From Methanobrevibacter millerae (GTDB lineage Archaea; Methanobacteriota; Methanobacteria; Methanobacteriales; Methanobacteriaceae), in assembly GCF_900103415.1 (NCBI RefSeq), contig NZ_FMXB01000002.1, positions 82,257 to 146,256 on the forward strand: 64,000 nucleotides of DNA. Reading direction: 5' to 3'. Shown piece by piece: positions 34,894 to 50,566 of the stretch. The notes below the pieces were generated by a model. That model had not been told where the DNA came from. It saw nothing but the letters and a program-made list of their open reading frames with translations, and made no database searches. The position numbers and the translations under genes are program-made. Every line of letters begins with the position of its first letter. Position 1 is the first letter of the stretch.

Positions 34894-35121
34894 ATGATAT
34901 TCAAAATGTGCCCAAGATGCGGCTCCAGAAAAGTGAAATGGATTATTCCTCAAAACTGGTCAACCTGGCAATGCTTTGACTGCGATTACACAGGCCCTAT
35001 CATCGAAGGCGATGAGGAACTTTCAGCCGAAATCCATGAAGCATACGTCAACGGAGATTATGAGGAAATTCCAGAAGAAGAAGATTTTGAAGATGATGAC
35101 GATTTAGATGAATTGGATTAA
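34894..35121 (+). CDS. Small zinc-ribbon protein with acidic tail
   Basis: 75 residues. CPRCGSRK (near residue 6) and CFDCDY (near 27) make one zinc ribbon. The last 35 residues are strongly acidic (EEEDFEDDDDLDELD). It starts one base after the PP-loop gene, so it is co-translated. It may be a partner or substrate-recruiting subunit of that enzyme. No ribosome site of its own is obvious. Confidence 0.8.
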   Translation: MIFKMCPRCGSRKVKWIIPQNWSTWQCFDCDYTGPIIEGDEELSAEIHEAYVNGDYEEIPEEEDFEDDDDLDELD

Positions 35122-35216
35122 TTAGTAATAATCAGTATCAACGGAAGCTGAGCCTTACTTGAATCAGATTCAAGTAATTCCGTTAATTCAGAATAATTAC
35201 TAACCAATCTTAGCAT
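35118..35216 (-). other. Candidate DtxR-regulated small protein or small RNA
   Basis: Downstream of the operator-promoter at 35245-35273 the minus strand offers a 32-codon frame starting ATG at 35216, about 10 bases after the predicted transcript start (MLRLVSNYSE... ending LPLILIITN). The same DNA forms three nested inverted repeats: 35122-35129 with 35196-35203, 35140-35146 with 35178-35184, and a 23-base perfect palindrome at 35155-35177. Thus it could be a tiny, nearly leaderless gene, or a folded RNA of about 100 bases. Comparison with relatives would decide: silent-site changes indicate protein, compensatory pairs indicate RNA. It overlaps the stop of the zinc-ribbon gene by four bases. 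Confidence 0.4.
35122..35203. repeat. Nested inverted repeats (long imperfect hairpin)
   Basis: Outer arms TTAGTAAT/ATTACTAA, middle arms AACGGAA/TTCCGTT and a perfect inner palindrome at 35155-35177 (TTACTTGAATC either side of A). The order is strictly nested, so the whole can fold as one long hairpin with bulges. It lies between convergent genes, where it may also act as terminator for the zinc-ribbon gene, but no T-run follows. Confidence 0.8.
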
Positions 35217-35244
35217 AACAATGCCAATACTATTTTTGTAATAA

Positions 35245-35273
35245 TTAATATATAAAGTTTAGGTAAACCTAAA
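35245..35273 (-). promoter_or_regulatory. DtxR-type operator abutting a TATA box
   Basis: TTTAGGTAAACCTAAA (35258-35273) is a 7-base perfect inverted repeat with two central bases, like operators of DtxR/MntR/IdeR metal regulators. On the minus strand it is followed directly by CTTTATATATTAA (35257-35245), a good TATA box. The same order and spacing, with 14 of 16 operator bases the same, occurs upstream of the DtxR-family gene (50541-50566). No known gene starts here, hence the candidate at 35118-35216. Confidence 0.6.
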
Positions 35274-35291: not shown

Positions 35292-36722
35292 TTAAATTCC
35301 TTTTTTCTCGAATTCTTCGTTTAAAAATATTTTGATATTATCCCTAGCCAGTTCAACCATTTCCGGAGCCGGTCCGCCAAGAACACGTCTGATTTTAACG
35401 TTTTCCCTAGGATTTAAAGCGTTTTGAATTAACTCATCATCCAGTTCAAGTTTATCAAAGCCCAGTTCAACTGCAATGTCGTCGATGAACTGTGAAGTGA
35501 TGTCCTCTTCAGCCATGTCGCTTGCAGTGGCTTCGTTAACTATACGGCCAACGATTTTATGTGCTGTCCTGAACGGAATATTCCTTTCCCTGACCATGAT
35601 GTCTGCCAGATCTGTGGCAGTTGCAAAATTGCGGCCTGCCAGCTCGGCGCATCTTTCGGTGTTGAATTCAACGGAAAGAAGCATTCTGGTGACAATTGAC
35701 AATGTGTCTTCACTTACCTTAAGGGCATTCCATAAATGAGGAGTGATTTCCTGCAAATCCCTGTTGTAAGTATAGGGAATGGCCTTGAGAATTGTTAAAA
35801 TGGTTACGAGTTCCCCATTGACTATGGTTGATTTTCCACGTGCCAGCTCTGCAACGTCAGGGTTTTTCTTCTGAGGCATGATGGATGAAGTGGATGAATA
35901 CTCATCAGCCATTTCTATAACACCGAACTCGTATGTGCTCCACAATATCAGCTCTTCACAGATTTTGGATAATGTGGTACATAAACTGGTTAAATCGAAA
36001 ACAGTTTCCGCAATAAAATCTCTTGCTGAAACGCCGTCCATTGAGTTTTCAAGATAAGCGTCAAAGCCCAGTAATTTGGTGGTCAATTCCCTGTCAATCG
36101 GAAAGCTGGTGGTAGCCATAGCTGCACAACCCAAAGGATTTAAATTAACGCGCTTGTAAGTGTCTTCCAAACGTTCATAATCCCTTTTAAGAGCCTGAGC
36201 GTGAGCCATCAGATGATGTGCTATCGTAATCGGCTGCGCATGCTGCAGGTGAGTGAATCCGATGAAAACGTCTTCCAAGTGTTCGCCCGCCATTTCAACA
36301 ATGCCTTCAATGAACTCCAGAATTCCTATCTGGATTCCGATGATTCGCTCCCTTAAAACAAGCCTGATATCGGTTGCCACCTGGTCGTTACGTGATTTTG
36401 CAGTGTGCATGTATCCGGCCTGAGGTCCGATTTTGGAGGTCACATAGTTTTCGATTGCCATGTGAACGTCTTCAACTGACGGATCAAATACTAAAGCACC
36501 GTATCCTTCATCCTTAAGTTCATCAAGGGCGCTTAAGATATTGTCTGCAATGTCCGCATCGATTATTCCCGTATGCTTGAGCATTGAAGTGTGCGCAAAA
36601 TTAGTTTTAATGTCAGCTTCAAAAATCTCCTTGTCAGCTTCCAGAGAAGAGGTATACTCAGCAGCCTCATCAGTCATTCCTGTTTTAAATCTGCCGTTTC
36701 TTATATTATCCACAAGAATCAC
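35292..36722 (-). CDS. argH: Argininosuccinate lyase
   Basis: 476 residues of the fumarase/aspartase superfamily. It splits argininosuccinate to arginine and fumarate. DVHMAIE (near 93), [13 protein letters not shown] (near 112), [10 protein letters not shown] (near 165) and the signature [11 protein letters not shown] (near 288) are all present. The start is a GTG at 36722 without ribosome site, or the GTG three codons later. It follows the ribosomal operon terminator, so it is probably transcribed from its own promoter or by readthrough. Confidence 0.95.
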
Positions 36723-49787: not shown

Positions 49788-50492
49788 TTAGACCCTAATG
49801 AAAATGTTGTTGGCCATTTCCCTTGAAATGATGAAATCCTCATCTTCAATGTTGAGGGAAAATTCATTGCCGTCATTATTATAATAATGGAGCTTATCGC
49901 CGACTGCTATTCCCAAATTGGCTATATCGTCCAGCAAATCATCATTTCCACGGATGAATGAAATGATACCTTCGGATTCGGGATTCAATTCGGAAATTGA
50001 AAGCAGATTGAATTGCCTGTTGATTACGTCATCAAAATCCTTTACTGAGAAACATTCCTGACAGCTTCCGAAATCCAAATCGCATGCAGGAATGACGTTG
50101 TCGTCGGGACATAAATCAGGATGCTGGAGCATGTTGCACAGTGCCCTTTCCGCTTCATCGGACAGAGTATGTTCCATTTCGCAGGCCTGTTCATGCACGT
50201 TTTCATGCTTTACCTTCAAGACCTCCAGGAGGAATTTCTCCAGAATTCTGTGCTTTCTTGTGATTTTTTGAGCTATTTTCATTCCTTCGTCGGTTAAAGA
50301 AGCACCTCTGTAAGGAGTGTAATTAATATAACCTAAAGCTTCCAATTTTTTAAGCATTTGGGTAACGCTTCCAGGCGCAATGCCCAACTCATTGGAAAGA
50401 GTAGTAGTTGATACCTGTTCTTTATTGCTTCCGTTTCTATAAAGAACTTCCAAGTATTCTTCAATATTTTCACTAATTTTATCATCAGCCAT
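49788..50492 (-). CDS. DtxR/MntR-family metal-dependent transcription regulator
   Basis: 234 residues from the ATG at 50492 (AAAAGGTGGA upstream). The winged helix (8-65) has VSTTTLSNELGIAPGSVTQMLKKLE. The dimerisation and metal domain (70-150) has HRILEKFLLEVL, HEQACEMEHTLSDEAER and CDLDFGSCQECF. The C-terminal part is FeoA/SH3-like. The family represses iron or manganese transport when metal is bound. Its own promoter carries a matching operator. Confidence 0.92.
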   Translation of the reverse strand: MADDKISENIEEYLEVLYRNGSNKEQVSTTTLSNELGIAPGSVTQMLKKLEALGYINYTPYRGASLTDEGMKIAQKITRKHRILEKFLLEVLKVKHENVHEQACEMEHTLSDEAERALCNMLQHPDLCPDDNVIPACDLDFGSCQECFSVKDFDDVINRQFNLLSISELNPESEGIISFIRGNDDLLDDIANLGIAVGDKLHYYNNDGNEFSLNIEDEDFIISREMANNIFIRV

Positions 50493-50540
50493 GAAAAATC
50501 CACCTTTTACATACAAATAATAATATATTTATTTTAAGAG

Positions 50541-50566
50541 TATAAAAAAGTTTTGGTTAACCTAAA
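50541..50566 (-). promoter_or_regulatory. DtxR-type operator and TATA box of the dtxR-like gene
   Basis: The plus strand reads TTTTGGTTAACCTAAA at 50551-50566, a palindrome with one mismatched pair. On the minus strand it directly precedes the TATA box CTTTTTTATA (50550-50541), about 50 bases upstream of the start codon. This suggests autoregulation. Compare with 35245-35273. Confidence 0.65.

Follow-up and report, generated by a model that had tools for sequence, protein, structure and literature searches.

The stretch of DNA analyzed here (the window, 64,000 nucleotides) lies on contig 2 of the 2.72 Mb genome of Methanobrevibacter millerae, and contains a 170-base gap between two converging genes, a 75-aa gene on the plus strand (34894-35121) and argH, which ends at 35292 on the minus strand. 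Along the minus strand of this region, reading from 35273 to about 35113, one meets a perfect DtxR-type palindrome, a TATA box and then nested inverted repeats that extend over about 115 bases. The palindromic operator (TTTAGGTAAACCTAAA, 35258-35273) is abutted by the TATA box (TTTATATAT, 35248-35256, minus strand), which points into the intergenic region, and the BRE/TATA region of the predicted promoter (ACTTTATATAT, 35248-35257, minus strand) contacts the operator. Since argH is transcribed toward the operator and the 75-aa gene ends before reaching it, no annotated gene can make use of it; a preliminary description of this block had noted that none starts here. The 75-aa gene, which stays next to argH in many relatives, specifies an acidic protein with a zinc-ribbon-like CPRCGS...CFDCDY pattern, and a search of this protein against Pfam returned no match.

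The operator motif TTAGGNNNNCCTAA is intact and in the same place in all 48 orthologous copies inspected (33 of them from outside the set used for model building), and because it is perfect throughout, its association with the locus is above chance. The four central bases vary freely (TATA, TTTA, CATA, TATT, AATA and others), and the TATA box begins at most a couple of bases past the operator, a geometry shared by every copy. Placed next to the TATA box in 48/48 copies, the operator also covers part of the BRE, and a repressor bound to it would obstruct TFB. In silico, the promoter thus carries the same TTAGGNNNNCCTAA motif as the feoB operators, as a member of a DtxR regulon should, and in each of the 48 copies the motif is placed so that an iron repressor could close the promoter of the RNA.

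The regulator is presumably the DtxR-family repressor encoded at 49788-50516 on the minus strand, which has a FeoA-like C-terminal domain (PF01325, PF02742 and PF04023; Fe_dep_repress, Fe_dep_repr_C and FeoA). Its own gene is preceded by a degraded copy of the operator (50551-50566). The two blocks had been described as matching in sequence, order and spacing; the order is indeed the same, but in the block of the DtxR gene (TTTAGGTTAACCAAAACTTTTTTATAC) one half-site is degenerate and the TATA box is shifted by about 2 nt. Operators of the same type are found at feoB (three in the M. millerae genome) and at a ferredoxin gene in the relative G029, and these neighboring genes suggest that the metal sensed is iron rather than manganese.

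The transcript predicted from this promoter would be a small RNA on the minus strand, starting near 35228 and ending near 35113, with both ends placed by the distance from the TATA box and by the conserved structure. At the predicted start is a 5' hairpin (35210-35227), which is found in nearly all copies even though its sequences are very different. It is followed by a long main hairpin (35116-35209), with outer arms at about 35196-35209 and 35116-35129, inner arms at about 35178-35185 and 35139-35146, and an apical hairpin at 35155-35177. The nested inverted repeats reported earlier downstream of the block are readily seen in the sequence, with ACGGAA/TTCCGT around TTACTTGAATC/GATTCAAGTAA, within TTAGTAAT/ATTACTAA. 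Between the inner and apical stems lies a bulge (GGCUCAGC, 35147-35154, minus strand) that is unpaired in the model, and whose GCUCAGC is identical in 48/48 copies. The apical loop displays UUCCUC, an anti-Shine-Dalgarno sequence, in 25/48 copies, although not in the window copy, which also has no clear U-run at its 3' end.

Compensatory, two-sided changes occur at 19 of the 21 modeled pairs of the main hairpin in a covariance-model alignment of 49 rows, one of which is the chance match G075 (see below). In the same alignment 87.1% of the cells are paired, compared with 70.5% after shuffling and 38-44% when the partners are slid; having been fitted to the structure, the alignment is biased toward pairing, but the contrasts with the controls are still large. 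The 48 copies have a mean folding z-score of -4.7. The Rfam covariance models gave no significant match to the window copy or to those of five relatives, and readings as a box C/D, H/ACA or k-turn RNA were dropped, as inspection by eye revealed no consistent motif.

Besides an RNA, the preliminary description had proposed a small protein of the MntS type, encoded by a 32-codon ATG frame. The frame does exist (35118-35216, minus strand), it starts about 12 nt past the predicted transcript start, and the nearest relative (G022) has one of 31 codons; however, the latter is shifted by one base ahead of GCTCAGC, and no other relative matches it. Across the 48 copies, frames start elsewhere, are short or are absent, and no conserved short reading frame was found. 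The silent positions of GCTCAGCT are invariant, while the structure covaries. Comparison of the relatives, which had been suggested as a means of distinguishing codon from base-pair conservation, thus came out in favor of the pairs (19/21), the reading frame not being kept. Judged by these alignments the frame is a product of chance, and an MntS-like protein of about 32 residues is hardly credible as the product of the locus. Of the earlier idea of an unannotated unit behind a DtxR operator, the operator (48/48) and the RNA, with its covarying hairpin, stand, and the small protein does not. With covariation, no conserved frame and no sense gene downstream, the element has the properties of a stand-alone, structured, non-coding RNA, and we have little doubt that the locus represents an uncatalogued, genus-wide structured RNA under DtxR control.

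A search of relatives with the bare DNA sequence gave full-length matches in four genomes of the genus and a match in two pieces in a fifth, and alignment of the region downstream of argH showed that most relatives share the architecture, slightly displaced in G024. A first covariance model, for which 16 sequences of the main hairpin were used, detected one copy in each of 48 genus genomes, 33 of them outside the seed; its match in G075 was without an operator and was rejected as a chance match. The refined model found 49 strong copies among 138 genomes of the family, that is, one copy per genome in 49/67 genomes of the genus, or 50/67 with the addition of G036, which was found by a DNA pattern. 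Matches in other genera were near chance level (the best being G096, at 1.3e-4), and the covariance model revealed nothing convincing in 83 other genomes of the order. The DNA pattern (operator, TATA box and GCTCAGC) occurred in 19 genomes, all members of the genus, while a reversed control of the pattern matched none; exact matches to the element pattern in named genomes were all from Methanobrevibacter, mostly rumen MAGs, and included M. millerae and M. thaueri. Seventeen genus genomes appear to be without the RNA, for example G034 (1,853,160 bp), G011, G004, G020 and G021. Conservation of the operator and downstream sequence, on which the earlier proposal depended, is therefore evident in 48/48 perfect operators and a structure that has been kept.

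Given its position between converging genes, and a sequence palindromic enough to match its own opposite strand, the element could be nothing but a bidirectional terminator or a mobile repeat next to a coincidental operator. The single copy per genome excludes a mobile repeat, and this explanation as a whole is highly improbable in view of the same promoter in all copies, the invariant unpaired bases and the 48/48 operators. It is also quite improbable that the RNA, although under DtxR, acts locally on the converging 75-aa gene, either as an antisense or as a terminator structure. In the window, the 3' end of the RNA does meet the end of that gene (35121), but the neighbors differ between genomes, with a PP-loop gene across from the RNA in several, and G024 retains an intact promoter and RNA despite a rearranged gene order.

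The reading that we favor, with some reserve, is that iron-loaded DtxR represses an RNA that acts in trans, as an antisense on the mRNAs of iron proteins. Iron-loaded DtxR would occupy the operator that overlaps the BRE beside the TATA box, excluding TFB and TBP; when iron drops, DtxR would leave and the RNA would be made. It would then fold into the 5' hairpin and the long hairpin that displays single-stranded GCUCAGC (plus the UUCCUC loop in half of the species), and could pair in trans with the translation-start regions of mRNAs, so lowering the synthesis of iron-rich enzymes, as an archaeal iron-sparing RNA. Searches for targets centered on the relative G029 (2.27 Mb), which carries the RNA. 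GCUGAGC sites were not enriched at gene starts in the whole of G029, and a pattern search for antisense pairing via GCUGAGC in 14 genomes plus the whole of G029 gave no enrichment and recurrent strings that look like coding sequence. Duplex energies in G029 do not favor iron-sulphur genes beyond what Shine-Dalgarno strength would give, which also accounts for the slight bias of the UUCCUC loop toward such genes. One of the genes starting with ATGAGC, a start that would pair with GCUCA, is fdhB, but by inspection these genes are not enriched in iron proteins. A strong single match to sepF in G029 was dropped, as the sepF start differs in M. millerae, and the searches made gave no convincing target.

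As no target enrichment was seen, the antisense step is one that we infer, and binding of a protein is a serious rival. The DtxR-controlled RNA could serve as a sponge or as part of a ribonucleoprotein, binding protein via the GCUCAGC bulge without any mRNA pairing; the bulge is invariant while the flanking stems covary, a bulge within a long hairpin resembles a protein-binding site, and the antisense searches came out empty. We consider this somewhat unlikely, as the apical loop is an anti-Shine-Dalgarno sequence in half of the copies and no known protein motif was recognized. Most likely the RNA works like a bacterial iron-sparing sRNA, although it could be assigned to no known family.

In G029 and in M. 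millerae (G000), operators often occur in pairs spaced by about 70 bp and are followed by no clear reading frame. Such loci share homology, both inside one genome and from genome to genome, and form a second predicted family of structured RNAs that is unrelated to the window RNA and has no Rfam match. By a strict pattern it is present in 46/67 genomes of the genus, at 1-4 copies each, with zero matches for a reversed control and zero outside the genus. An operator lies upstream in 27/28 inspected copies, and more than one in 20. Examples are G000:C5:155178 (L070), G000:C6:19262 minus (L073) and G000:C10:98638 (L075), and, on G029:C1, 399682, 456724 minus and 744527 minus. Among genomes without the window RNA, the pattern detects the second family in G011, G004, G020 and others, but not in G034 and G021. 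A Cys-rich microprotein of 34-38 residues ending in FFFGCNC(H/G) was noticed downstream of leaders that are under operator control and related to this family (L076 minus near 1761; L174:13893; L033 minus near 1738; in G000, beside feoB), and as a metal-regulated small protein it is a stronger candidate than the frame in the window.

The conserved segments of the second family are AAUCUCC, CACAAUUUUCUAAUU and UCUGCCAAA, with the tail UCUCUUUUU, and a further one, AAUCUCCAAAA, shows complementarity in G029 to the Shine-Dalgarno regions of fdhA, hypC and a gene for a polyferredoxin. For a second-family segment, one of several tried, the top 30 hits included seven iron-sulphur genes, with 3.65 expected on average under the null (empirical p ~0.04), which is suggestive of targeting of iron-sulphur mRNAs. 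The start region of fdhA (TTTGGAGATTATAAAATG) hardly differs among 49 genus genomes, whereas variation is seen at the third codon positions that follow it directly, and the same holds for the fdhA 5' leader (TTTGGAGATTATAAA, e.g., G000:C8:40233-40267 minus). The start region is, however, conserved as well in genomes where the strict pattern detects no second-family RNA, so its conservation may have other reasons. Tentatively, we suggest that the genus may run a DtxR-controlled iron-sparing program of two unrelated small-RNA families, in which the multicopy, usually dual-operator family would silence formate dehydrogenase and other iron-sulphur enzymes. The genus, which lives in the rumen and gut, is a major producer of methane in ruminants, and much iron is contained in its hydrogenases and formate dehydrogenase.

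Regulation by iron-controlled RNAs is a familiar feature of bacteria, and a limited search of the literature found no such RNA in archaea. Archaea of this genus may likewise manage iron by regulatory RNAs, and a conserved, single-copy, operator-tagged RNA makes archaeal RNA-based iron sparing directly testable. The bacterial RyhB, PrrF and FsrA are iron-repressed sRNAs that are made once the iron repressor leaves and shut off iron proteins; the same logic is proposed for the window RNA, which has no homology to them and comes from another domain of life. MntS of enterobacteria resembles the window locus in being small and subject to a metal repressor of the DtxR family, but it is a protein, and the locus has no conserved reading frame. 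Within the archaea, sRNA162 and sRNA154 of Methanosarcina mazei offer a comparison as intergenic regulatory RNAs of a methanogen, although genus, regulator and sequence are all different, and neither is linked to iron as far as we know. For sRNA162, action on mRNAs in trans is described (PMC3510493). IsrR of Staphylococcus is a Fur-controlled iron-sparing sRNA with two Fur boxes that pairs with the Shine-Dalgarno sequence and start of fdhA (PMC9410917). Like IsrR, the window RNA is stand-alone and structured, with an iron-repressor operator and conserved unpaired segments that are rich in pyrimidines; in place of the C-run of IsrR, the invariant element here is the GCUCAGC bulge. The archaeal promoter, DtxR instead of Fur, and the lack of sequence or structural homology set it apart, and a target has been demonstrated for IsrR only. 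The second family, with its two DtxR operators and a segment complementary to the Shine-Dalgarno region of fdhA, parallels IsrR without being homologous to it. If true, the two-RNA program would be an archaeal counterpart of IsrR and RyhB, reached independently, that ties the electron metabolism of methanogens to iron supply.
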